A DNA stretch of 34,054 nt, taken from positions 1 to 34,054 of the IMG/VR virus record IMGVR_UViG_3300042878_001390; one strand, 5' to 3'. Under the pieces are notes generated by a model. That model did not search any database. It saw only the letters and a program-made list of their open reading frames with translations, and was not told the origin of the DNA. Positions 4,032 to 26,619 of this stretch are shown in pieces. A program made the position numbers and the translations under genes. Position 1 is the stretch's first letter, and each line of letters opens with the position of its first letter. Source of the DNA: a virus.

Positions 4032-5294
4032 ATGGCTTTGAATTACACATACTTAAAATACAAAGACACATACACACTTAAAAATAATGGAAGTGTGACT
4101 CTTACTTACTCAGTAAGTAAAGTGACTTGTGAAGCAACTACTGAAATAAAAACAGGTACAATCTTACCTGGACAGACTACAATCTTAAACTTTGTAGTAG
4201 ATGGAAAATACTCTGTTTACTTAGCTTCTTCTACTGAAACAGGTATTCCTATTATAATTAAATATTATAATAATCTACTTACTTCTTTTATTAGTATGGT
4301 AGAAGCAATTATATGTGGATGTAGTAAGTGTAATGATTGTGAAGAGTGTAACCAATGTGAAGATTATCTTGGTACATTTATGAAAGCTGAAGCTTTTAAT
4401 ACTCTTAATTATCCTGTCTATCAAGGATACATAAATCAAACAACTCAAGATTCTATTTGTTTATTTAGTGAACAAGTTTTATGTAGTTTATTACATGAAA
4501 AAGTATATGGAAATGTAGAGACAAAAGAAGTGATGTTAAGACTAATAAGTTTTTATTACTTAGGTTTTTATTATCAAGATAAGTTTTTAGCTATAGATGT
4601 ACAAGAGAAGGCTTATGTTACAGAAAAATATAAGTTTGATAAGATAGCAGCATGTATGAGAAAGTTAGGTATTATACCTACAGACCCTTTATTCATGACT
4701 ACAACAACTACTGTTGCACCTATTACAACTTTGGCACCTACTACAAGCACTAGTACTAGTACTAGTACTACAAGCACTAGTACAACAACAACGAGTACTA
4801 CTACCACTACTGCAGCACCTTCTTGTAATTTAGCAGGTACAGCAGCATTAGTAACAACTCCTACTACAGCAGCCCCTACTACTACTCCTACAACTGCACC
4901 AACAACTACTGTAGCACCAACAACTGTAGCTCCTACTACTTCAAGTACAACAACTAGTACAAGTACTACTACTACAACAGTTTCCCCAATACCTGAAGGT
5001 ACACAATTATCTGTTATAACTCAAGGATATACTACAGCTCAATTAGCTTGTAATAACTATACAAGTAATGCAGGAAATACAGGTGGAGTAGGAACAGCAG
5101 GACCTGTTTATGTTGTAGGCAGTATAGTTTACAATACTAATGGTACTCCTTTTGTAGGTAATCCAAATTTATACTATATAATCACTGCATATATTAATAT
5201 AACTCCAGGTCTAGAGAGTACTTCTCGTATTAATGCTTTAGGTGTTATTACATCTGTAAATACTTTAGATTGTTTAGCTATCAATATAAACTAA
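4032..5294 (+). CDS. Surface protein with Cys-cluster and two mucin-like Thr-rich linkers
   Basis: 420 residues in five parts. Residues 1-90 form a beta-rich domain. Residues 95-115 hold seven cysteines as CxC, CxxC and similar pairs (CGCSKCNDCEECNQC), a likely metal site or disulfide knot. Residues 115-222 are helical, with many Tyr/Phe. Two Thr-rich stalks (about 223-263 and 274-318) are built of T, S, A, P and V with no charge. A C-terminal beta domain (about 320-420) includes an AC-x-x-Y element and GSIVYNTNGTPF. Such stalks separate a virion-anchored N-terminus from an outward-facing tip. It is the first gene after a terminator and promoter box. It is probably a head or tail fibre; I know no proven function. 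The C-terminal module resembles that of the next gene. Confidence 0.72.
   Translation: MALNYTYLKYKDTYTLKNNGSVTLTYSVSKVTCEATTEIKTGTILPGQTTILNFVVDGKYSVYLASSTETGIPIIIKYYNNLLTSFISMVEAIICGCSKCNDCEECNQCEDYLGTFMKAEAFNTLNYPVYQGYINQTTQDSICLFSEQVLCSLLHEKVYGNVETKEVMLRLISFYYLGFYYQDKFLAIDVQEKAYVTEKYKFDKIAACMRKLGIIPTDPLFMTTTTTVAPITTLAPTTSTSTSTSTTSTSTTTTSTTTTTAAPSCNLAGTAALVTTPTTAAPTTTPTTAPTTTVAPTTVAPTTSSTTTSTSTTTTTVSPIPEGTQLSVITQGYTTAQLACNNYTSNAGNTGGVGTAGPVYVVGSIVYNTNGTPFVGNPNLYYIITAYINITPGLESTSRINALGVITSVNTLDCLAININ
4698..4820 (+). repeat. ACN microsatellite encoding Thr-rich stalk 1
   Basis: Degenerate triplet tract of ACT/ACA (Thr) with AGT/AGC (Ser) and GCA-CCT (Ala-Pro) punctuation, including a clean ACTAGT hexamer run near 4747-4769. 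It encodes about 41 residues. Loss or gain of triplets keeps the frame. Confidence 0.85.
4851..4986 (+). repeat. ACN microsatellite encoding Thr-rich stalk 2
   Basis: Second Thr/Pro/Ala stalk of the same protein, about 45 residues, with recurring T-T-T-x-A-P units and a terminal run of Thr/Ser. It is separated from stalk 1 by a ten-residue spacer that contains a single Cys. Confidence 0.85.
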
Positions 5295-5326
5295 TAAAAA
5301 TATTAAATAAACTAATACTAGATATT

Positions 5327-5929
5327 ATGACAGTCTTAATAACACTTACAACAGCAGGAACTTCATTAGGTTTCTTTGATTTATACTCAAATGCAAATGG
5401 TTATACAATTCCTTTTGCAACTAATGTATCTAAAGCAACTTTATTGGCAGGGTACACTAGTAGTGCAGTACCTGAAGGGACAACTATGATACAAGTAAAA
5501 TCTTTAGGGGTTTGTACTAATTCTATATATGTAACTGTTACAGGTATAACAACAACTACCTCAACAACAACAAGTACAACTACTACTACCACTACAACAA
5601 CAACCACTACTACTACTACAACTGTTCCTCCTACTTTAGATTGTTCATTAAATGGGACAGCAGTTAGTCAACCTAATGGATGTAATATTACCAGTTCAAT
5701 AGTATTAGCTCAAGGAACTAGTTCAGGAGATGCTTGTACTAAATTTGCTACTCCTGCTAATAGATCCACTTATTATACTTTTGATGGCAGTAGTTTTGCA
5801 AGTACTGATGGTCTTAATCAAACCCCTATTTGTACACAAAGAGCAAGTTCTGGGTGGTACTCAAATGGAATCATATCTAGATACTTTGATAATGCTACAG
5901 GTAATTTTAATACTCCAGTAGGATGTTAA
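5327..5929 (+). CDS. Thr-stalk surface protein, paralogue A
   Basis: 200 residues from the ATG at 5327. An in-frame ATG at 5270 would overlap the previous gene by 25 nt and add a peptide without similarity to the paralogue, whose start corresponds to 5327. The N-terminal domain (1-74: MTVLITLTTAGTSLGFFDLY and on) is closely similar to that of the next gene and looks like a small beta-sandwich anchor. Then come about 28 residues of nearly pure Thr (5549-5632), and a C-terminal domain (about 103-200) with DACTKFATP, YYTFDGSSFAST and a closing Cys, related to the C-terminal module of the preceding gene. Probable fibre or adhesin; its binding partner is unknown. Confidence 0.72.
   Translation: MTVLITLTTAGTSLGFFDLYSNANGYTIPFATNVSKATLLAGYTSSAVPEGTTMIQVKSLGVCTNSIYVTVTGITTTTSTTTSTTTTTTTTTTTTTTTTVPPTLDCSLNGTAVSQPNGCNITSSIVLAQGTSSGDACTKFATPANRSTYYTFDGSSFASTDGLNQTPICTQRASSGWYSNGIISRYFDNATGNFNTPVGC
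5549..5632 (+). repeat. ACN microsatellite encoding Thr-rich stalk 3
   Basis: About 25 Thr codons (ACA, ACT, ACC mixed) interrupted only by two serines and closed by Val-Pro-Pro. This is the purest poly-Thr tract in the window. The codon mixing lowers but does not remove slippage potential. Confidence 0.85.
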
Positions 5930-5966
5930 TAATGAATTTTTATAAATATTATAAAATCAAACTAAA

Positions 5967-6644
5967 ATGACAGTTTTAATCACATTGACAACAGCAGGAA
6001 CTTCTACAGGTCCTTTTAACCTCTACTCAAATGTAGATGGTTATGCAGTCCCATTTGAGACTAATGTAAATAAAGGAAACTTAGTAGCAGGATATACTAG
6101 TACATTAGTTCCTGCAGGAGCAACTACAATACAGGTAAGGTCTTTAGGAGTATGTACCAATGGGATAAACTTGACTATTACAGGAGGAACTACTACTACT
6201 AGTACAACCAGTACTACAACTACTAGTACTACTACAACTACAGTGGCACCTACTACTAGTACAACAACTACAAGTACTACTACTACAACTACAGAAGCTC
6301 CTTTTAATTCAGTAGAGTTTTTTGGAGATGAACTTCCTGCTTATGGAGGAATTTCTGATGGGGGTTACCAATTAACTGGGACTGTGGAAATAATAGGAAG
6401 TCCTGCTACTTTTACGGCTTATGTGTACCTGCCTAGTGAACTTCTAGGATCTGTTTCTAATGATTTTAATATAGGAGGTGGTGGTGGCCTAAGTAGATAT
6501 GTAGAGTTAGTGTCTCCAAATTCAGGAAATGCATACTCACCAACTATGACATTTCCTGCAGGTGTCTATAGTTGGACATTAACTATTCAGTATAGTGGAG
6601 GAGCAGGAGGAGGAAGTGAAGCTGGAGTAAATTGGGTACAATAA
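5967..6644 (+). CDS. Thr-stalk surface protein, paralogue B
   Basis: 225 residues. The N-terminal 75 residues (MTVLITLTTAGTSTGPFNLY and on) duplicate the previous gene's anchor: both have an LYSN-x-x-GY-x-x-PF-x-TNV core and an LGVCTN element. A Thr/Ser stalk with one VAPTTS interruption (6189-6302) follows. The C-terminal domain (about 113-225) is unrelated to paralogue A: Gly-rich, predicted beta-sandwich, with VEFFGDELPAYGG and a GGGGG loop. This is a duplication in which the tip has been exchanged, typical of adhesin modules. The start follows an A-rich leader (AAACTAAAATG). The glycosyltransferase begins 21 nt downstream. Confidence 0.72.
   Translation: MTVLITLTTAGTSTGPFNLYSNVDGYAVPFETNVNKGNLVAGYTSTLVPAGATTIQVRSLGVCTNGINLTITGGTTTTSTTSTTTTSTTTTTVAPTTSTTTTSTTTTTTEAPFNSVEFFGDELPAYGGISDGGYQLTGTVEIIGSPATFTAYVYLPSELLGSVSNDFNIGGGGGLSRYVELVSPNSGNAYSPTMTFPAGVYSWTLTIQYSGGAGGGSEAGVNWVQ
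6189..6302 (+). repeat. ACN microsatellite encoding Thr-rich stalk 4
   Basis: About 38 codons, almost all Thr or Ser, with VAP in the middle and EAP at the end. It corresponds in position to stalk 3 of the paralogue but differs in length and Ser content. Confidence 0.85.
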
Positions 6645-6665
6645 TAAATGTAAAATAATTAATTT

Positions 6666-7592
6666 ATGAGATATATTTGTGCACAACCTGCAAATAATTT
6701 TTATACTTGGCAGGTAGAAGTAGTAATAAATAATTTTAAAAAACAGGGTGTTAACCCTAATAAGATTGACATCCTTTGTGCAATAGATGATAATGTAATT
6801 CCTGAAGAATGGAAAAAGTTACAAAATCATTACAATACAGTTAGGTTCTTTTTTTATAATGATACTAGAGTAGATAAAAGTTATATTCCTTCTATCTATT
6901 TTAATCTTATGAGTAACCACATGAAAGCAAACCCAGACTTAATAGGTCAAAGGTTGTTTCTTCATGATAGTGATATAATTTTTACAAGGCCACCTGAAGT
7001 AGATTGGGCAATGCCAGGTAAAGTTTGGTACTTAAGTGATACTAACTCATACATCAACTATGATTACATACAACAAAAAGGTAATCAGATTTATGAAGAT
7101 ATGTGTGAAATTATAGGTATAGATAAGTTAGTACCTAAACTAATGAACAGTAATTCAGGAGGAGCTCAATATATAACTATTGGAGAATCTTTTGAATTTT
7201 GGGACAAAGTAGAGAGTGATAGTGTCAAACTTTATTCTTACTTTTGTCATACTGAAAATCTCTACATCAAAAAGTATGAAGGAGATTTTCCAATCCAAAA
7301 ATGGACAGCAGGAATGTGGTCTATTCTTTGGAATACTTGGTTAAAAGGCTATGAAACAAAAGTGGATTCTAGACTTAATTTTGGTTGGAGTACAGACCCT
7401 ATCTCCTCAATAGAAAAATACTGGATACTTCACAATGCAGGAGTTTCTTCATCAGACATAGATTTATTCTTTAAAGGTAATTACATAAATGAGTTACCTT
7501 ATAATAAGAGTCTAAATGTAGATACAAATAGATCTAGTTCATATTATTGGAGTGAAGTTCAAGAAACAGGAAAACAAACAATACTGATATAA
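6666..7592 (+). CDS. DxD-type glycosyltransferase (GT-A-like)
   Basis: 308 residues, cytoplasmic, with no signal or membrane segment. I recognise a family of phage-borne glycosyltransferases by the start MRYICAQPANNFYTWQVEVV and by HDSDIIFTRPP. The D101-S102-D103 motif is the metal/nucleotide-sugar binding DxD of GT-A enzymes; a beta strand (FLHDSDIIF) precedes it as expected. NSNSGGAQY (about 162-170) and the WTAGMW/HNAG elements in the C-terminal half are plausible acceptor or sugar pocket residues. Donor and acceptor are unknown. It follows three Thr-rich stalk proteins and is 1 nt from a methyltransferase, which points to modification of those proteins; a host glycan or DNA target is the alternative. 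All expected parts appear intact. Confidence 0.8.
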   Translation: MRYICAQPANNFYTWQVEVVINNFKKQGVNPNKIDILCAIDDNVIPEEWKKLQNHYNTVRFFFYNDTRVDKSYIPSIYFNLMSNHMKANPDLIGQRLFLHDSDIIFTRPPEVDWAMPGKVWYLSDTNSYINYDYIQQKGNQIYEDMCEIIGIDKLVPKLMNSNSGGAQYITIGESFEFWDKVESDSVKLYSYFCHTENLYIKKYEGDFPIQKWTAGMWSILWNTWLKGYETKVDSRLNFGWSTDPISSIEKYWILHNAGVSSSDIDLFFKGNYINELPYNKSLNVDTNRSSSYYWSEVQETGKQTILI

Positions 7593-7593
7593 T

Positions 7594-8190
7594 ATGGTAA
7601 AAGAAACTTTTACAAAAATCTACACTGATAATCTTTGGGCATCTGCTGAAAGTAAAAGTGGTTCAGGTTCAGAGTTAAGAAATACAGAGACTCTAAGACA
7701 AGAGTTATCAGTGCTTCTAAAGAAATATAAAATACAATCTATGTTAGACATTCCTTGTGGAGATTTTAATTGGATGAAGGAAGTAGATTTAAGTGAGATT
7801 GATTATGTAGGAGCTGATATAGTTGAACAACTAATAGAAAGCAATAATAATAAATACTCTGATAAGGCTTTTACAGTATTAAATTTAATTGAAGATGAGT
7901 TGCCTAGAGCAGACTTAATTTTTGTTAGAGATTGCCTAGGGCACTTAAGTAATGCAAATGTCTTAAAAGCTTTAGAAAACATTAAAAAAAGTGGTAGTAA
8001 GTATCTGTTAGTAACTAGTTTTACTAAGTGGGATCAGAATCCAGATATAGTAGATGGAGGTTGGAAATGTATTAATCTAATGATTGCACCTTTCTATCTG
8101 AATCCAATCTATTTAATAAATGAAGATTGTCAAGAAGGATACCCTAATTATAATGATAAGTGTATGTTATTATTTGATTTAACAAAATAA
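7594..8190 (+). CDS. Class I SAM-dependent methyltransferase
   Basis: 198 residues. Motif I is LDIPCGDFNWM (residues 51-61), the Gly-containing SAM loop, a variant of the usual GxGxG. The acidic end of strand 2 is D75 in YVGADIVEQL; the strand 4 region is ADLIFVRDCLGHLS (about 105-118); strand 5 is KYLLVTSF. This pattern belongs to a family I associate with phage and glycan-biosynthesis gene clusters, with a typical C-terminus (here YPNYNDKCMLLFDL). The likely acceptor is a sugar or small glycan rather than DNA, as no DNA-methyltransferase catalytic motif (DPPY or PC in context) is seen. Its start lies 1 nt after the glycosyltransferase stop, so the two are probably translated together and act on one product. 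Confidence 0.82.
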   Translation: MVKETFTKIYTDNLWASAESKSGSGSELRNTETLRQELSVLLKKYKIQSMLDIPCGDFNWMKEVDLSEIDYVGADIVEQLIESNNNKYSDKAFTVLNLIEDELPRADLIFVRDCLGHLSNANVLKALENIKKSGSKYLLVTSFTKWDQNPDIVDGGWKCINLMIAPFYLNPIYLINEDCQEGYPNYNDKCMLLFDLTK

Positions 8191-8201
8191 TATTTTAGAC
8201 C

Positions 8202-9956
8202 ATGTTAGAAATACAAAAAATAAGAAAAGACATTAATTGGTTATTAGAACAAATAAAATGTCTAATAAGAAAAAGTGATTTGGATAGTCCTTTGGCAGCT
8301 ACTGAGTGGTCTTTAAACCATTCTGTGGCAACAGGTAATCCATATATCTTAGGATGTTTTGTATGGTTTGAAGGTCATGTATATGAAAGTCTTATAGATG
8401 ATAATACTTATCCTCCTACTAATGACTGTTATTGGACAGACTTAGGAGAAGGACATTTATTGTTAGAAGAACAATCTAATTGGAATGCTACTACAGGTAG
8501 AGCTTTTATTAGAAACAAACCTGATTTATCTCAGTATGCTCTTGATGCTGATGTAGTTCATAAGACAGGTAATGAAACAATTGATGGTATTAAGACATTT
8601 CTAGAAGATGTAATAATAATTGGAGATTCAAAGTATATTGTTGTTAGTAGTGCTGATAATGAAACTGGAAGTGTTCTTTTAGCTACTGATGAAGATGGGT
8701 TACCTTACATTCAACTAGCAACTTCAGGAAGTGAAAACAGAGCAGTGTTTCGTATGGATAACATAAATTCAAGTTGTACATATCAACTACCTAATGATAA
8801 TGGAACTATTGCTTTAGATGAGAATTTAGTACACAAAACAGGAGATGAAATTATTGATGGCATTAAAACATTTATTAAAGATATAATAGTAAATAATATA
8901 TTTGTTGGAAGAGGAGAAGGAGATAGTATTACTAATACTGCTATTGGTTATAGAGTATTACTTCATAACACTACAGGAGTTGAAAATACAGCTATAGGAA
9001 GTCAAGCACTTAGAAATAACATTACAGGTATTAGAAATACAGCTGTTGGTGAAGGGTCTCTTAAACAAAATCTAGCTAATGAAAATACAGCCATAGGACA
9101 TGGTTCTTTACAAGTAAATACTACTGGGACTGAAAATACAGCAGTAGGAGCACTTGCACTTAATAGTAACATTATAGGTGAGGGTAATACAGCTGTTGGA
9201 CTAAAAGCACTTAAAGAAAATGTTGCATCAAATAACACAGCAGTAGGAAAAGGAGCTCTTAGTGAAAATAAAACAGGATATGACAATACTGCAATTGGAA
9301 AAGATGCTCTTAAAGAAATTATTGGTGGATTTGACAACACTGCTATTGGAACAGATGCCCTTAGAAAAAATACTACAGGTAGTTCAAATACAGCAGTTGG
9401 AAAGATGGCTATGGGAGATACTCTTATTGCAGGAAATAGTAATACAGCATTAGGTACTTCTGCCCTTGAAAGAGCTTATAATTCAACAGGTAATACTGGA
9501 GTTGGAATTTTTGCTCTTTATACTGTTAGAGGAAATTTTAATACTGCACTTGGATACAATGCTCTTAGTAAGATTGGTCTTGGAATTCAAAATGTAGCAG
9601 TTGGAGCTTCTGCATTTGCAAGTAATCAAAGTGGGGATAATAATATAGCTATTGGGTATAATGCACTTAACCAAGAAAATTTTGGTGATGATAATATTGG
9701 AATTGGTAGAGACTGTAGAATAATTGGACCAGGTGCCTCTAATTGCATAGTTATTGGGGCAGATGCTAGAGGATTAGGTTCTAATACAACTGTAATAGGA
9801 AATAACTTTACTACATTAACTGAACTTAGGGGAGATCTATCTTTGCCAGAAGTCAGAAATCTAAATTTTGTAGATGATGCTGCAGCAGCATTAGGAGGAG
9901 TTCCTGTTGATGCAATATACCATAATGCAGGGATACTGCGTATAAGATTAGTATAA
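8202..9956 (+). CDS. Trimeric fibre with YadA-like NTAIG repeats
   Basis: 584 residues. Residues 1-110 form an anchor with a short coiled-coil start (MLEIQKIRKDINWLLEQIK) and an aromatic domain. Two related segments, VHKTGNETIDGIKTF (about 123-137) and VHKTGDEIIDGIKTF (about 209-223), are a common phage fibre spacer. Residues 245-536 hold about 16 repeats of 16-18 residues beginning NTA(I/V)G, the left-handed parallel beta-roll of YadA-type trimeric adhesin heads. The last 35 residues (DDAAAALGGVPVDAIYHNAG then RIRLV) match a small fibre C-terminal domain common in phages. It should form a trimeric surface fibre that recognises the host or mucus. No S74 intramolecular chaperone domain is seen. 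It follows the methyltransferase after 11 nt. Confidence 0.85.
   Translation: MLEIQKIRKDINWLLEQIKCLIRKSDLDSPLAATEWSLNHSVATGNPYILGCFVWFEGHVYESLIDDNTYPPTNDCYWTDLGEGHLLLEEQSNWNATTGRAFIRNKPDLSQYALDADVVHKTGNETIDGIKTFLEDVIIIGDSKYIVVSSADNETGSVLLATDEDGLPYIQLATSGSENRAVFRMDNINSSCTYQLPNDNGTIALDENLVHKTGDEIIDGIKTFIKDIIVNNIFVGRGEGDSITNTAIGYRVLLHNTTGVENTAIGSQALRNNITGIRNTAVGEGSLKQNLANENTAIGHGSLQVNTTGTENTAVGALALNSNIIGEGNTAVGLKALKENVASNNTAVGKGALSENKTGYDNTAIGKDALKEIIGGFDNTAIGTDALRKNTTGSSNTAVGKMAMGDTLIAGNSNTALGTSALERAYNSTGNTGVGIFALYTVRGNFNTALGYNALSKIGLGIQNVAVGASAFASNQSGDNNIAIGYNALNQENFGDDNIGIGRDCRIIGPGASNCIVIGADARGLGSNTTVIGNNFTTLTELRGDLSLPEVRNLNFVDDAAAALGGVPVDAIYHNAGILRIRLV
8934..9810 (+). repeat. Tandem repeats encoding the YadA-like beta-roll
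   Basis: About 16 imperfect repeats of 48-54 bp. Each begins with a codon string for N-T-A-I/V-G and carries an A-L motif seven residues later. The repeats are diverged at DNA level, so the array is old or under selection at the protein level; the last two units (NIAIG, NIGIG) decay into a different beta pattern. Confidence 0.85.
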
Positions 9957-21000: not shown

Positions 21001-23879
21001 TAGGTCTTGTGGGAGTTGCAACTACTTTGACAATTTCAGGTATTCAACAAGATGCTTGGAATAAGGCATATAACATTTTATATAATCAAGGACTTAGAGA
21101 GACTATTACAGACTCTTATATGCAAGATGATGTTGACCCTATAAATGGAGAACCAAGAGGATTTAGAAAAAACCCTCAAGATGATGAGATTCAGTGGTTA
21201 GGAGATTGTGCAAATCTTTGGTTTGAATCTGCAGTTAACATAGGATTAAGACATGGTGCCACTGATAATACTCCAGACTTTTTAAATGCTCCTGGACTTG
21301 TAGAATCAGGTACTACTTATTCAGAATGGAATAGAGAATACTTTGGAATAAATTCAGTAGGTTCTGCAGAAGTCCCTCCTACCACAGCTTTAGACTTTCA
21401 CATGGTTAAGAAATTAACTTACCTAGATGCAAATAGAAAAGGTGGTAGAGCTTACATTGGTTTAGCTGCTGCTGAAGTCTATGCTTTGAATCCTGATTAC
21501 ACAAGAAGAAACAGACAAAAAGCTTTTAATCATTTAGGATTAGAGTATGACTGTTGTTCAGATTGTGTTGAAACTTTTCCACATAGATTCCACTGGTCAG
21601 AACAAGCCTTCCAGGAAGAAGTGACTGATAACTTTAGAATGTTTTTACCTAATAATTATAAAGACCTTGAAGCTGAGACAGGTAAAATTACAGACTTGTT
21701 TAGAATTCAAAATAATCTTTATGTTCATACTGAAGAAGGTCTTTGGCACTGTCCTCAAACTTTTCAAGAAAGGGTAACTAATGATATTATTTCTTTTATA
21801 GGAACAGGAGAATACTTCTCTGTACCTCCTAGAAAGATTGTAGATGATGCAAACTCTTCTGCAGGTAATATACATAAGTGGGCAAGAACCAAAACTAAGC
21901 ATGGAGTTTTGTTTCCATCTTTTAAAGAAAAGAAATGGTACTTATTTAATGGTCAACAATTGAAACCTATTAGTGATAATGGTAATAGTAATTACTTTAA
22001 AACTCACATGGATTTCTTAGTTGAGCAACAATACTATGCAGCTAATTCTGCAAACTATCCTTATAGAAATAACCCTTCTAATCCTTTAGGAGTAGGGTTC
22101 TTATCTACTTATGATACTAATAAAGAAAGACTTATCATTACTAAGAAAGATATGAAGATTACTAACCTTCCTACAACCTCTTATGAGCTTTGTACTGAAG
22201 GAGCACAGACTATTATCTTTCCTAACATGGCACAAACTATTGCAACTAGACTTGCAGCAGGTTGGAATTACATAGGAATAGAAGATTGTAAAATGAAGTT
22301 TGAAAAAACAACTTATGAAACAACTACTACTATTGCTAATCAATACACTTCTGTAGCAAATGATATAGACATCTGGGCATTCTTTGATACTTCAGGTTCT
22401 TTCTCAGGTTCAGATTTAGCTCAGATAGATGCAAGTCTTGATGATTGGATAGCAAATGATTTAGTACCTACAGGTTGGGCAGGAAATATATACAAAGTCA
22501 ACACTTCTTCAGAAAAGTGGTTAGACTTTCCTAGTCAAATTCCTTTAGCAGATAGAAATAAAGTATTGTTAATTTCTTTTGTTAATGAGGCAGAAGGAGG
22601 ACCAGTATCAGCTCCTTATCATAATAGTGCTTTAAATTTTACAGGGCAACCTACTGCAATTTATACTACACATTACAATGCCTTTACAGGAGTAGGAGGA
22701 CTTTACTCTACTTTTGATAAATTCATAGGTATTAATTATCCTATTGCTACAGTAGCAGCTTCTAAAGCTTTTATACTTCATTCTTTGGCTGCTGTTAAAG
22801 GTTCTGATTATACTCTAACAGAAGTAAACAGCATACCTGTAAATAGTTATTTTTCAGGAGCAGAATGGACTTCTTTAAAATCTCAACTATTGAATAATCC
22901 TTACAAGACTTTATTAGATCCTAATGGAGACCCAGGATTAGAACAATACAATTGGTTTGTAAAACCTGATAGAAGTAATTTAGGTAGTCCTCTTTCTGCA
23001 GACTGTCCTGCTAGTACCCTTATTATTTCTCCTTGTCAATTTGCTGTAGATATGAATACTATCTTAGCATCTTTAACAGAAGTAACACCAGTAGAAATTA
23101 CTAATACTTATCCTGTAACTAGTGTTCAATATGAAACAGGACAAGTTTTTGTACCTCAGACTTTGAACAATGGTTACACTATGTCTTACTCTTTAAAAAG
23201 AGAAGAGTGGGTAGGATGGCATCCTTATATCCCTAGTTTCTATATGCATGTACAAGAGAAGTTTTACTCTTGGACTCAAGGTTCTAGATACTTGTTTAAA
23301 CATAATAGACCTAATCATTATCAGACTTTCTATGGTGTAAGATACCCTTTCATTGTAGAGTATGTAGATAACCCAAGTGCTATGACAACTAAGATATGGG
23401 ATAGTTTATTGTTCCAAACTGAAGCCAAGAAATTTGACCCTATCAGTGAAGAATATTTAGACCAAAGATATGTTACATTTAACAAAGCTTTGTTTTATAA
23501 TACCCAACAGACAAGTGGTATTATTACTCTGGCACCTAAACAAGATAGTAACATCAACTATTTGTTGCAACAAACTAATAATGCTTTAGGAGTAGCAACT
23601 ATAGATAGAAATGAAAGAGATTGGACTATGAACTCTATGAGAGATATAAGAATAGATTATACTATTCCTATGTTCTTAAAAGATTTACCTTCTCTTCAAA
23701 GTAGTTATTACATAGATAAAGTAGTTAACCCTGCTGCTATTGATTATAATAAGGACTGGACACAGCTTGAAAGTTTTAGAGACAAGTTCTTGGTAGTAAG
23801 GTTAATATTTGATAACTTTGCTGATACAAGATTAATCTTTAACTTCTCAGCTTTGCAAAGAGCAGAATCAGAAAGATAA
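18030..23879 (+). CDS. Muzzle protein (giant tail-tip protein of crAss-like phages)
   Basis: 1,949 residues. Size, position after the ring gene and the start MAQEKQQGGISVNIPGGLNT (then RFVFTGVNETKEGDLGFIAN) identify the muzzle, the large oligomer closing the tail tube. The fold should be mostly beta, with strands of Y/T/S-rich repeats. Several extras stand out: a Cys-containing beta insert (about 520-690: PAECPTTDPPSGC onward); a 50-residue hydrophobic hairpin (about 956-1005), with two membrane-length segments joined by a Gly turn; a Cys cluster CCSDC (about 1176); and a von Willebrand A-like insert (about 1445-1640) with MIDAS-type D1453-T-S-G-S. The C-terminus returns to long beta strands. 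The frame is intact throughout with no in-frame TGA or TAG and no CpG at all. Confidence 0.85.
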   Translation: MAQEKQQGGISVNIPGGLNTDSSLVNQPEGTTRFVFTGVNETKEGDLGFIANEESNQECYDLNANTTLGPGYVPMGKVYIGDENSAIFLANPNGNSAIIIVDKNCNVVVSFSDKNQTEKMGFSVAQQIDATFRLRRGCERVVYWVDPKPRMFILDKEEEYKNPTTGNWDVSKFNLFKTYKKIPVVLDLEVVDAGGVLPPGSYNFSIQYLDEDFNPTEFVTSTETVMIYNVPSTSSYREKRGATMEKNDSYLNFENSNKAIKIVFDPNSLDTTFPFYRLAITEANAGGGLISDTKYTSEISTRNSTFYYTGLNYESTGTQAEVTMFNNIIEKAQSIEQIENRLVLGDIEGKQVNYCKLQKYASKINTDLITKTVIVSTADKSNVKDPAAHFNGIGYMPGEIYSLAIVYIFADNSVSPAFHIPGKSLGVPLNYMFSAGTSVYPMSNVNNACTDTRYIDNNTCGEDTFWGEDSQGDSLTNQAVRHHRFPLRTDYNIPFVTKVPEGSALSFIKTLNIVVSKTGAICPAECPTTDPPSGCVDTLGNFGSPVTFGPYVYTVNYTEDSTPGVIASTIDPYLYVVTVGDNTTQNVNYNANSGNLYGASVVITDIEETFDYPTLPNTVAMSGPTLDPITGMYYYTGTSTVTTMTYKIVIGIGVQDASDPLYSSEIFGLNFSNIHKPSLTDTNGQEVTGYYIVRHERTEADRTVVDSAVLTSTTKEKNFVAQGLLFPQYATPGEQAAKIKKDTVGLIYPEHKFNSRKYSTFNKIVQQGKFNKIKTISSRTKIRDVSDGTGYVSGKHKDGESDDDGFTIQIKTRDNITNFEGTSQFTLDSTNIKELYYLNALEDKLTHDSTDTGIDVFNLACDNRVGIIQLKQDYTFNTVSSLPYVYLYRDIVEPYSNFRLTPYYKESRNPETFDPITNVGTVAIWNGDSYISSIRYVNSVYFDTRMKKRAGKTSVWNYIIAFVLVVVAVVVTIFSFGLGTVAAVGLVSLAVGLVGVATTLTISGIQQDAWNKAYNILYNQGLRETITDSYMQDDVDPINGEPRGFRKNPQDDEIQWLGDCANLWFESAVNIGLRHGATDNTPDFLNAPGLVESGTTYSEWNREYFGINSVGSAEVPPTTALDFHMVKKLTYLDANRKGGRAYIGLAAAEVYALNPDYTRRNRQKAFNHLGLEYDCCSDCVETFPHRFHWSEQAFQEEVTDNFRMFLPNNYKDLEAETGKITDLFRIQNNLYVHTEEGLWHCPQTFQERVTNDIISFIGTGEYFSVPPRKIVDDANSSAGNIHKWARTKTKHGVLFPSFKEKKWYLFNGQQLKPISDNGNSNYFKTHMDFLVEQQYYAANSANYPYRNNPSNPLGVGFLSTYDTNKERLIITKKDMKITNLPTTSYELCTEGAQTIIFPNMAQTIATRLAAGWNYIGIEDCKMKFEKTTYETTTTIANQYTSVANDIDIWAFFDTSGSFSGSDLAQIDASLDDWIANDLVPTGWAGNIYKVNTSSEKWLDFPSQIPLADRNKVLLISFVNEAEGGPVSAPYHNSALNFTGQPTAIYTTHYNAFTGVGGLYSTFDKFIGINYPIATVAASKAFILHSLAAVKGSDYTLTEVNSIPVNSYFSGAEWTSLKSQLLNNPYKTLLDPNGDPGLEQYNWFVKPDRSNLGSPLSADCPASTLIISPCQFAVDMNTILASLTEVTPVEITNTYPVTSVQYETGQVFVPQTLNNGYTMSYSLKREEWVGWHPYIPSFYMHVQEKFYSWTQGSRYLFKHNRPNHYQTFYGVRYPFIVEYVDNPSAMTTKIWDSLLFQTEAKKFDPISEEYLDQRYVTFNKALFYNTQQTSGIITLAPKQDSNINYLLQQTNNALGVATIDRNERDWTMNSMRDIRIDYTIPMFLKDLPSLQSSYYIDKVVNPAAIDYNKDWTQLESFRDKFLVVRLIFDNFADTRLIFNFSALQRAESER
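20892..21041 (+). other. Hydrophobic membrane-hairpin segment within the muzzle protein
   Basis: Encodes about residues 956-1005 of the muzzle: a V/I/A-rich first segment (IIAFVLVVVAVVVTIFSFGL) and a second of similar length with G and A, separated by a short turn. Such a hairpin could insert in the host membrane after ejection, or be packed inside the oligomer. No other hydrophobic run of this length occurs in the muzzle. Confidence 0.75.
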
Positions 23880-23891
23880 AGATTAATCTTT
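23878..23891. repeat. 14-bp perfect palindrome at the muzzle stop codon
   Basis: AAAGATTAATCTTT overlaps the TAA stop and ends 16 nt before the next ATG. The 15-mer AAGATTAATCTTTAA also occurs at 23828-23842 inside the end of the muzzle gene, making a direct repeat of 51-bp period. As a hairpin it would be weak and AT-rich. Possible operator or mRNA processing site; chance in AT-rich DNA cannot be excluded. Confidence 0.4.
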
Positions 23892-23907
23892 AATAAACTA
23901 AAGAAAG

Positions 23908-26619
23908 ATGTTACAACCTAAGAAACCTAACCCTGCTCAAAAAACTAAGAGGAAGACTGCTCAAGGACAGTACACCTCTGATATTGATTGGGATCAAGTT
24001 AGATCTGTAAATGATAATGTAGCAGTTCAAACAGCAAAAATGTTTGACCCTACAGGTATTAGTTCTTATCCTGATGTTTATTATGCAGCTAAAGATTTAT
24101 CTGAAGGAAAAGGTTCTTGGGGAGAATTAGGTTTAAATGTTCTTGGAGCTTTGCCTATGGTAGGTAAAGCTAAAACTATTTTTAGATTGGCTAAAGCAGC
24201 TAAAGCATCTAAAACAATAAAGAATACAAAAAAAGTTATTAATGCTGTAGAAGAAGTTGCAAGTAAAGTTAACAAAATTACAAATCCTGCAAATATTAAA
24301 CCTATGATTAAAACTAAATCTGTTGTATCCTCTTCAAAACAAATTGGTAAGGCAGATATAAAAAACTTAGGTGTAGATTTATTAGACATTGGAAATGTTG
24401 GGGCTGATATAACTAGTGTAGTTAAAGCAGGAACTCCTGTAGTAGAAGAAGCTTCTAAGAAAGTGGAAAAACTTTTAGAAGAGCCTTCTATAATAAACAA
24501 AGAAAAAATTAAAAGAACAATACAATATTATAACAGAGACCCAAAAAGAGGAGAAGTAGAAACTCCTGGAAAATTGGCTAATGTAGATTATAGAACCATT
24601 AATAATTCAGCTGAATTAAAAATGTGGGAGCAACAAAAATTAGTTTACGGAACTGGAAATCAAGGAATTATGAAAAGAAAAATGAACCCTAGAAAAAAAT
24701 ATGCTAATGGTACTACTCCTGCTGGAGTTGGACCTAATAATTATATTCAAACTCCTAATGAGGTATTGAATGATTATAATATTATGTTAGCTGAAGCAGA
24801 TCAACAAGTGGCTAGTAATTCTTTAGTTCCTATTGTTTCCTTAGTAGGAGGTCTTGCTCAAGAAGCTATTAAGTTTGGAGGAGCAGGAGGCTTTAGTAAA
24901 GAAGCTTGGACTAAAACTCCTAAGACAGCTGCTAATGGAATGAACAATGTAAACCAAGATGTAGAAGTTGAAGGAGGAGAAATGTATGAAACTCCACAAG
25001 GAGAGACAGGAGAATTTCAAGGACCAAGTCATGAACAAGGAGGTATGCCTATGGAAGTAGGACAAGATATTCCTGAAGGAACTAAGGTTTACTCTGATAG
25101 ACTTAAAGTTGGTAAAGAAACTTTAGCTGAAAGAAAAGAAGCCAGAGAAAGAAAAATTGCTAACCTTGAAAAAATTGCTTCACAACCTTTACTTGATTCT
25201 GCTGTTAAAAATGCTACTCAAAGAAAAATGCAATCTATTCAAAAAGAAGAGATGGCTGACTTACAATTCCAAGAGCAAGTAAATAATATGCAACAAATGG
25301 CTGATAATGTTATTGCAGCTTTTGGTACTAGTATGAAAGGACTACAAGCAAATCCTATGAAATATGAAGATGGTACTGGCCCTGCAGGAATTAAGTATGG
25401 TAAAGGATATGATGCAAATATGTTTAAAGACTTTTATGCAAAGTACAATGAACTAAATCCTGGAGGAGTAATGGATATGAATTTCATTCAAGGAGATTTA
25501 GGTATAGAAAGTAAAACTCCTGGTTTTGGTAAAGTATTTGGACCAGGTACTTATAAAGCAAGTCAAGATTGGTTAGCTGCCAATAAAGACAAGAAAGCTG
25601 ATGGATATGTTACAGGAGATGCTAATGGAGATGGGATAAGTGATTCCCTTGGTAGTAATCCTAATATTAACTTAGATGCTTTAAAGAATTTTAAAATAGG
25701 AGAAGGAATTAATGATAATGCTTCTTTAAGTTATGGAGATCCTTATGCTGAGGATGGTGTTAACTTTAAGATGCCTTCAGAAACTGTAATGACTCCTATA
25801 GAACAATATGGTAATGGTGTTGATACTGGTATTACTCCTGAAACTGATTTACCAGGAAACATGTTTAGTAGAGTATTGGGTAAAGTAGGTACTGCTGTAA
25901 ATAAAAGTGGAGGTATTCCAGGTATGGGAGATATTGCTAGTCTTTTTGGAGATTATCTTGGTTCTACTGCAGGTCTTAAAAATGCTGCTGAACAAAGAAG
26001 TACTGACATAACTCATAGAAATGTGTATGCTAATGCAGGAAAAGAAACTCAGAAACAATTAGATACTGCTATGAGTTCTATTGAAAATGCTAAAGCTCAA
26101 GCAATAAGTAAAGCAACTACTACTACTCAAGGAGGTAAAAAATCTGGTAGAAATGCTGCTAGAGGTATTAATCAATCAAGAGCTATGGATTGGTTATATG
26201 ATACAGCTTTACAACAAAATATTATGGATATTAGTACAGGAGCTGCAGGACAAATTGCAGACATATATAAAACTAAAGCTAGTACTGCTCTAAGTGTAGA
26301 TCAATTAAAAGGACAAGGAGAGTATCAAGCTAATATGGCTAATGAAGCTGCTAAAGATGCTTACTATACTGCTAAAGGATTAGGTCTTAAAGATCAAGCT
26401 TTAGGAATACAGAATATTGGTAAAGACTTAAATACCATGAAAAAAAATAAAGTTAAATGGAATATTGCAAAAAAATCAGGTATCTATGGTCAAGGAAATG
26501 ATGAAGGGGATATTACTAACAAAGCTATAGAAATTACTGACCCTAGAACAGGAAAAAAAATATCTGTATCTATGGAAGAATACCAAAAATTTATAGCACA
26601 ATCTACTAAAACAACATAA
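23908..26619 (+). CDS. Capsid cargo / ejection protein 1
   Basis: 903 residues, Lys/Ala/Gly-rich and helical with long disordered links. Its place right after the muzzle gene is that of the cargo proteins of crAss-like phages (gp45 region of PhicrAss001, from memory). Residues 1-25 are basic; 75-130 contain amphipathic helices (LGLNVLGALPMVGKAKTIFR then Ala/Lys repeats). Residues 350-400 hold an EGGE to GPSHEQGGMPMEVGQDIPEG to KVYSDRL element that I associate with large virion proteins of Bacteroidota phages. At 571-579, DANGDGISD is a Ca2+-binding loop like those of dockerin and thrombospondin repeats. The C-terminal 200 residues are helical, Gln/Ala-rich, resembling a tail-tape or transglycosylase-holder region. 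No enzymatic motif is seen. Likely packaged in the capsid and ejected. Confidence 0.68.
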   Translation: MLQPKKPNPAQKTKRKTAQGQYTSDIDWDQVRSVNDNVAVQTAKMFDPTGISSYPDVYYAAKDLSEGKGSWGELGLNVLGALPMVGKAKTIFRLAKAAKASKTIKNTKKVINAVEEVASKVNKITNPANIKPMIKTKSVVSSSKQIGKADIKNLGVDLLDIGNVGADITSVVKAGTPVVEEASKKVEKLLEEPSIINKEKIKRTIQYYNRDPKRGEVETPGKLANVDYRTINNSAELKMWEQQKLVYGTGNQGIMKRKMNPRKKYANGTTPAGVGPNNYIQTPNEVLNDYNIMLAEADQQVASNSLVPIVSLVGGLAQEAIKFGGAGGFSKEAWTKTPKTAANGMNNVNQDVEVEGGEMYETPQGETGEFQGPSHEQGGMPMEVGQDIPEGTKVYSDRLKVGKETLAERKEARERKIANLEKIASQPLLDSAVKNATQRKMQSIQKEEMADLQFQEQVNNMQQMADNVIAAFGTSMKGLQANPMKYEDGTGPAGIKYGKGYDANMFKDFYAKYNELNPGGVMDMNFIQGDLGIESKTPGFGKVFGPGTYKASQDWLAANKDKKADGYVTGDANGDGISDSLGSNPNINLDALKNFKIGEGINDNASLSYGDPYAEDGVNFKMPSETVMTPIEQYGNGVDTGITPETDLPGNMFSRVLGKVGTAVNKSGGIPGMGDIASLFGDYLGSTAGLKNAAEQRSTDITHRNVYANAGKETQKQLDTAMSSIENAKAQAISKATTTTQGGKKSGRNAARGINQSRAMDWLYDTALQQNIMDISTGAAGQIADIYKTKASTALSVDQLKGQGEYQANMANEAAKDAYYTAKGLGLKDQALGIQNIGKDLNTMKKNKVKWNIAKKSGIYGQGNDEGDITNKAIEITDPRTGKKISVSMEEYQKFIAQSTKTT

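Follow-up and report, generated by a model that had tools for sequence, protein, structure and literature searches.

Three consecutive genes for proteins with long threonine (Thr)/serine (Ser)/proline (Pro) stalks stand directly before a glycosyltransferase (GT) gene in a metagenomic virus, and the question raised by this locus is whether the enzyme decorates the stalks encoded beside it. The window is the whole stretch of DNA that was analysed, 34,054 nucleotides of IMG/VR record IMGVR_UViG_3300042878_001390; the source record is a whole 34 kb metagenomic virus whose first gene encodes a crAss-like major capsid protein. The cassette occupies positions 4032-8190 and runs in the order of three Thr/Ser-stalk genes, a DxD glycosyltransferase and an S-adenosylmethionine (SAM)-dependent methyltransferase (MT). 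The gap between the third stalk gene and the GT is 21 nt, and that between GT and MT is 1 nt. An earlier note, made from the sequence alone, had proposed these genes as a candidate phage-encoded system that would add a sugar to stalk Thr and cap it by methylation, and the order, the spacing and the stalks that it described are all found in the open reading frames (ORFs). Comparison of sequences and a predicted GT structure point to a system, encoded by the phage itself, for the O-glycosylation of virion proteins at oligo-threonine stretches, a reading to which we give a probability of roughly 0.86. On the same grounds, modification by the GT of the Thr stalks encoded beside it appears strongly supported.

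The association between the GT and Ser/Thr tracts was analyzed across relatives of the enzyme from 74 phage records (tblastn), from IMG/VR (the best 80 of 404 and the best 80 of 156) and from 36 bacterial-genome loci, with matches of 150 bits or less excluded. The loci were clustered at 90% identity, and 105 of the 107 clusters possess an upstream gene. With a strict tract criterion of at least 9 Ser/Thr in 12 residues, the gene immediately upstream (-1) of the GT carries a tract in 79 of the 105 loci, and one of the three upstream genes does so in 86. Tracts were found in 53 of 1051 genes outside positions -3 to GT and in only 1 of 104 genes at position +1. Random anchors placed in the same loci gave a mean of 6.5 and a maximum of 17 in 10,000 draws, against the 79 observed. 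GT and tract gene are separated by a median of 11 nt, and Thr makes up 65% of the tracts, Ser 11% and Pro 7%. The 79 tract-bearing partners represent 18 unrelated families (single linkage, tracts masked). In Bacillota phages the partner is often a major tail or major capsid protein that ends in poly-Thr, TTTTTTTTGGA being one example from a tail protein; these identities are taken from annotated relatives. Lactococcus phage CHPC971, for instance, has a poly-Thr end on its major tail protein, and in Chryseobacterium phage MA9V-3 the GT is preceded by a stalk gene. Of the 19 loci (of 105) that do not pass the strict criterion, 11 show a tract that is weaker or lies elsewhere (7-10 Ser/Thr in 10), the looser search (7 in 10) also picking up chance frames; here the upstream gene falls below the threshold or was missed by the gene caller, or the tract lies further upstream or downstream. 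One more of the 19, locus L009, shows a (TTVKP/TTVAP) repeat at the end of an immunoglobulin (Ig)-domain protein. In Lactococcus phage bIL285 the GT follows the capsid gene, and it is the major tail protein, encoded 1.3 kb beyond, that carries the poly-Thr tail, so GT and Thr tract need not adjoin.

Natural knock-outs showed poly-Thr tail and GT either present together or absent together. Homologs of one major tail protein and one major capsid protein were gathered by homology to queries from GT-bearing loci (L220, L230 and L251), from sets of 80, 397 and 397 genomes, from IMG/VR and, chosen by hand, from seven loci of named phages. In IMG/VR no relative of the capsid protein turned up, and genome prophages were therefore used for the capsid set. 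A Thr tail was defined as a stretch of 10 residues with 7 Ser/Thr among the final 40 of the protein, a threshold fixed after the tails were inspected; L332 has a borderline tail. Each set of identical proteins contributed one entry, L256 and L354 were excluded because their flanks are short, and the partly masked L357 was scored as having neither feature in the table and left off the trees. Among the tail protein homologs, 10 possess both poly-Thr tail and GT, 44 possess neither and none is mixed (Fisher 4e-11), and the capsid protein homologs are likewise divided into 8, 16 and none (Fisher 1.4e-6), the rows of both tables being non-independent. Removal of the hand-picked loci (tail L316-L318; capsid L312-L315) left 10/0/0/41 and 7/0/0/13, with the mixed classes again empty. 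In the best tail-protein tree, tail and GT change together 7 times, with 3 pairs on supported branches and no discordant pair; in the capsid tree they change together in 2 pairs, again with no discordant pair. Supported pairs are so few that a sign test cannot reach significance. Within Coetzeevirus, the capsid protein of Lacticaseibacillus phage R3.3 has a poly-Thr tail together with the GT; phiJL-1, ATCC8014 and Silenus have neither. As a side observation, three capsid homologs without GT (L348, L349 and L351) carry a C-terminal extension, Ig-like by eye, where the GT-bearing homologs carry the poly-Thr tail, and phiJL-1 has an Ig-domain gene in place of the GT of R3.3. Ig domain and Thr tail may be alternatives.

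These joint changes bear on the proposal that the GT acts on something else, such as a host surface glycan, the cell wall or phage DNA, and merely happens to sit among the virion genes. Passages of PMC10202952 and PMC12619734 discuss phage GTs with roles of this kind, and relatives of the neighbouring MT often lie away from tracts. Such a target explains neither why tail and GT are present or absent together in two unrelated virion proteins nor why tract-bearing partners come from 18 unrelated families, at a rate far above random anchors, and we consider it very improbable. The action of the GT on the adjacent stalks is favoured also by a crAss relative of the window phage, L273, which has the same gene order from the capsid gene to an anchor protein, as judged by lengths and first residues. 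This anchor protein (L273:3781-4491) is 50% identical to the first stalk protein over the alignment and ends before the stalk. The next two genes after it are neither stalk genes nor GT nor MT.

The GT (6666-7592; this and the other genes and tracts of the window given here are on the + strand) is a protein of 308 aa belonging to phrog_4417 (E 5.3e-69), whose function is listed as unknown in PHROGs. Its DSD motif, a form of DxD, comprises residues 101-103 (6966-6974). Residue conservation analysis across 75 sequences showed that D101, D103, Q211, W213, H256, G259 and K270 are invariant. The alignment thus contains a conserved His-x-x-Gly and a Lys near the C-terminus, a set which we take to recall the C-terminal nucleotide-binding motif of GT8-clan enzymes. 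A model built from the 75 natural sequences has a predicted local distance difference test score (pLDDT) of 96.2 and a predicted template modelling score (pTM) of 0.92. It matches glycogenin (Z 15.3, root-mean-square deviation (rmsd) 3.4, 223 aligned), LgtC (Z 14.8, rmsd 3.3, 229 aligned), UGGT (Z 14.5, rmsd 3.8, 240 aligned) and GlyE (Z 13.7, rmsd 3.7, 216 aligned), and the matches span the whole length of the protein, with sequence identities of 6-13% among the matches listed. The model confidently predicts a GT-A transferase similar to glycogenin, LgtC and UGGT. Glycogenin, LgtC, UGGT and GlyE are retaining enzymes, and the modelled likeness suggests a retaining mechanism for the phage protein. 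The shared fold proves no function, though some of the structural neighbours act on proteins or glycoproteins.

Sequence families gave little in comparison. No Pfam or NCBIfam family was matched by the window GT, and a sequence search with it matched no solved structure. Among its 75 relatives, Pfam matches are weak and scattered; for example, 3 relatives match Stealth_CR2, at best with E 0.23, and one matches a GT2-like model (E 0.043). A likeness between the N-terminus of the GT and plant hydroxyproline arabinosyltransferases is not claimed here. The GT8 Pfam model is absent from the 17 families matched by the 75 members at E values up to 1, and the family is not placed in GT8 by sequence. 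In named phages the relatives sit among head and tail genes. Two records of Enterococcus phages deserve mention here. In phiFL2A (L003 4001-4910; record 23415-24324) the GT frame after the major tail protein is unannotated, with only the 93-nt gp49 at its end; this GT may be frameshifted because the tblastn match there needs two pieces. In the record of phage 9183, the annotators liken its GT relative to a 'PqqD family peptide modification chaperone'.

The proposed acceptors in the window are the three stalk proteins. Stalk protein A (4032-5294, 420 aa) is composed of a Cys-rich globular N-terminal domain (4032-4697), a Thr/Ser/Pro stalk and a C-terminal domain. It matches phrog_15330 (3.8e-11), which has no assigned function, and its stalkless syntenic homolog is the L273 anchor protein. 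Two Thr/Ser tracts, at 4734-4817 and 4929-4988, are its candidate acceptor regions. Stalk proteins B (5327-5929, about 200 aa) and C (5967-6644, 225 aa) each possess an N-terminal module of about 73 aa (5327-5545 and 5967-6185), followed by a Thr tract (5540-5629 and 6180-6299, again putative acceptor regions) and a C-terminal domain. The start of B was taken as the ATG at 5327, the frame in the ORF list beginning at the TTG at 5270, and C is encoded directly before the GT as its -1 partner. The tracts listed are the densest in Ser/Thr and use a mixture of ACT, ACA, AGT and ACC codons, and as synonymous codons are mixed, the tracts are not a single-triplet DNA repeat. The N-terminal modules of B and C are 70% identical over 73 aa, and related phages have further genes with this module, of which the majority carry tracts and some do not. 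The predicted model of the module from C (pLDDT 87) has structural matches too weak to convince (best Z 5.7; rmsd 2.6, 69 aligned; none under E 1 in Foldseek), and an Ig-like sandwich is our guess for it. In named phages, no tblastn match was found for stalk proteins A and C.

The composition of the stalks also addresses the idea that they are modified by general O-glycosylation of the host. The likely host phylum, Bacteroidota, has such a system, which according to passages of PMC12871550 recognizes a D-(S/T) motif and acts on noncytoplasmic proteins. No D-(S/T)-hydrophobic sequon occurs in the stalks; the three proteins have a single one between them, the D-S-I found at residue 140 in the globular part of stalk protein A. 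Both the missing sequon and the action outside the cytoplasm had been put forward in the earlier note, along with the DxD motif, and these statements hold, the motif now having invariant aspartates and a confident GT-A model around it. The acceptor motif of the general system is thus not found in the stalks and its known substrates are noncytoplasmic, so we regard modification by the host as exceedingly improbable.

The gene following the GT encodes a putative SAM-dependent methyltransferase of 198 aa (7594-8190). It matches phrog_3382, annotated as 'methyltransferase', at E 1.1e-52, in agreement with what was first noticed in the sequence, and Pfam methyltransferase domains weakly and below the cut-off (E 1.7e-5). 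Pfam analysis of the +1 position covered 53 of 77 eligible genes, the remaining 24 having been set aside by eye. In 28 of the 53, a GT or methyltransferase match was found either directly or through a blast cluster, a few of them, including the window MT, being below the cut-off. The families include GT2, GT6, GT7, GT11, GT34, Fringe-like proteins and several methyltransferase types such as FkbM. The other 25 genes either match different families, among them those of crAss muzzle and ring proteins, a LanC-like protein and a head-tail connector, or match none. From these family matches, the +1 position looks like a slot for elongation or capping of a glycan in IMG/VR phages, and the MT would be one optional occupant of a slot which is also filled by other enzymes. 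Relatives of the MT at 36-41% identity occur in mycobacteriophage Ariel, in prophiGD91-2 and in cyanophage ACG-2014f. The Ariel relative (41%) stands in a run of capsid, GT, GT, kinase and MT genes, that of prophiGD91-2 among four GT genes, and that of ACG-2014f beside GT and nucleotide-sugar genes.

Several observations weigh against the assignment of oligo-Thr O-glycosylation to this cassette. By a lax criterion and our own judgement, 7 of the 105 GT loci have no convincing tract nearby. In the opposite direction, among at least 64 viral poly-Thr loci in the matches listed, a GT of this family lies within three genes downstream in 8; 30 loci with at least 2 kb of 3' flank have no such GT there, and 26 have too little flank. 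Pfam analysis of 45 of the 49 genes downstream of these tracts gave 2 GT2 matches and 1 GT1 match. The capsid protein of Ariel possesses no poly-Thr tail at its C-terminus. The L273 phage could carry a GT elsewhere, as its contig is only 8.2 kb long. The slot reading is limited to IMG/VR phages because the 24 unscanned +1 genes come nearly all from Bacillota loci. Finally, 39 of the 46 distinct MT-relative loci in IMG/VR show neither the GT family nor a tract nearby.

Since many poly-Thr genes have no GT of this family nearby, poly-Thr need not imply glycosylation by this route. The same abundance of poly-Thr phage genes without such a GT suits the view that Thr stalks are plain flexible linkers and that GT and stalk co-travel as one structural module. 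All 44 tail-protein homologs without GT are also without a Thr tail, and in bIL285 the GT and the poly-Thr tail are not adjacent; both facts speak against a plain linker carried along in one module, and we hold this explanation to be very improbable. Beside one poly-Thr locus, L367 of the series L361-L440, the next gene encodes a radical SAM/SPASM protein, another candidate peptide-modifying partner.

Because 39 of the 46 loci lack both GT and tract, the MT family seems to be of general use and recruited here. The GT family was found within three genes in 6 of the 46 distinct loci, one of them being the window's own phage, and each of these 6 has a tract no more than four genes away. The pairing of GT and MT in genomes without Thr-stalk genes, which would have told against the earlier note, was therefore not seen, the cases being few. 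Glycosylation of the stalks by the GT with the MT as a passenger methylating another target is unlikely in our estimate but deserves serious consideration, for with this GT family near only 6 of 46 loci the MT family has no fixed tie to the system. A passenger fits less well with a gene placed 1 nt from the GT, at a position filled in related loci by glycosyltransferases or by methyltransferases such as FkbM, or with the relatives in Ariel and ACG-2014f, which sit in runs with GT genes. On the whole, the link between GT and stalk proposed in the earlier note has been strengthened by the linkage, the knock-outs, L273 and the GT-A model, and its methyl cap would be the work of one optional occupant of the slot.

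Relatives of the GT outside phages were found in Sphingobacterium (L241 2707-8136) and Mucilaginibacter (L246 3468-12889), where they lie within proteins of 711 and 566 aa, respectively. Both adjoin genes for a C39 peptidase and a LanC-like protein, the C39 protein of Sphingobacterium being an ABC transporter. The LanC-like Pfam match is above the cut-off in Mucilaginibacter and below it in Sphingobacterium, and NCBIfam transporter matches are below the cut-off at these loci. The Mucilaginibacter locus contains in addition a VKOR/thioredoxin protein and, as recognized by eye, a small protein whose leader is of double-glycine type. Such a neighbourhood is one of peptide modification, and a peptide acceptor for the GT would fit it. 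From their gene content, these are possible loci for glycosylated peptides resembling ribosomally synthesized and post-translationally modified peptides (RiPPs). A wider proposal is that phrog_4417 and its relatives are general oligo-Thr O-glycosyltransferases, occurring in phages of Bacteroidota and Bacillota, in one Actinomycetota phage record and in bacterial RiPP-like loci. A short poly-Thr tag on any protein in the cytoplasm would then suffice, and the next gene in many phages would be a fast-swapping slot which varies the outer glycan, so that the sugar coat of the particle would vary like bacterial surface antigens. We consider the chances for and against this proposal evenly balanced.

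In the proposed mechanism, the phrog_4417 protein, as a soluble GT-A enzyme, would move a sugar from a nucleotide sugar onto Thr/Ser of the stalks in the host cytoplasm, before or during assembly, and the crAss stalk proteins would be located in the virion. The next gene product, here the MT, would probably modify the added sugar, in the simplest form by O-methyl capping of the glycan. For the benefit, a glycan shield or a stiffened, protease-resistant stalk is our guess. The analysis gives a testable function, in cultured dairy phages, to a GT family unnamed by Pfam and NCBIfam and without a function in PHROGs. If the reading is true, a poly-Thr tail together with a phrog_4417 GT would be a sequence-only rule for flagging glycosylated phage particles, and a soluble enzyme glycosylating a short Thr tag in the bacterial cytoplasm would be a useful tool. 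It bears also on the persistence of phages outside cells and on the recognition of phage particles. The original hypothesis has good support at its core and reaches further than supposed, to a distinct GT family linked with oligo-Thr tracts in unrelated virion proteins and accompanied by a variable partner gene.

The surroundings of the cassette are those of a crAss-like phage. The major capsid protein gene (24-1085), whose start lies outside the window, matches Pfam Crass_capsid at E 1.2e-121 over profile positions 135-495, and this crAss-type capsid protein assigns the phage to Crassvirales. A later gene of the window has a weak match to the Pfam crAss ring-protein model, below the cut-off. 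The phage-encoded GT stands 3' of the stalk genes, and all of these are downstream of the capsid gene. A 64 kb contig, L012, carries an identical GT and is probably the same phage. The gene at 8202-9956 encodes a spike/fibre-like protein (Pfam BppL_N, E 8.5e-12; 'tail spike protein' and 'virion structural protein' in PHROGs) and is probably the downstream boundary of the cassette. Its translation shows, by eye, many NTA(V/I)G..AL..N..G repeats after two BppL_N stretches, and these recall YadA-like head domains.

Compared with known systems, the phrog_4417 protein shares fold and DxD motif with the GT-A transferases glycogenin, LgtC, UGGT and GlyE; it differs in a sequence identity of 6-13% in the matches listed and in the absence of a GT8 Pfam match among 75 members. 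Dense O-glycans on Thr/Ser/Pro stalks would result as in the mucin-type O-glycosylation of eukaryotes, which is an analogy only, as that system uses a different compartment and different enzymes. Among bacterial proteins, the Ser/Thr-rich-repeat adhesins receive sugars directly on their Ser/Thr-rich repeats, as described in part of PMC12871550. Their cytoplasmic glycosylation resembles the present proposal in the Ser/Thr-rich acceptor, and the likeness is drawn on the acceptor alone; the adhesins are exported bacterial proteins, whereas the acceptors here are proposed virion proteins. Closest in setting are the mycobacteriophages Che8, Corndog and Myrna, whose own GTs attach glycans to the capsid and tail tube proteins, at their C-termini, according to passages of PMC12619734, PMC12363180 and PMC12691614. 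The same passages, on Freeman et al. 2023, state that these virion glycans affect antibody binding. For some Rhodococcus phages, virion glycosylation has been inferred from a GT and a methyltransferase, as a portion of PMC13313380 reports. The window phage is like the mycobacteriophages in encoding a GT of its own, here among virion genes, and in Ariel GT and methyltransferase genes follow the capsid gene. It differs in its proposed acceptors, which are oligo-Thr tracts. The 74 tblastn phage matches of the GT include no Mycobacterium-named record, six of them having no name, a negative that rests on record names, with no direct comparison to the GTs Che8 gp110 and Corndog gp38. The titles and abstracts listed in searches of open-access literature gave no account of poly-Thr tails tied to a phage GT. 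Glycosylation of phage virions is already known, and judged from these sequence comparisons the present GT family with its oligo-Thr acceptor appears to be a new form of it.

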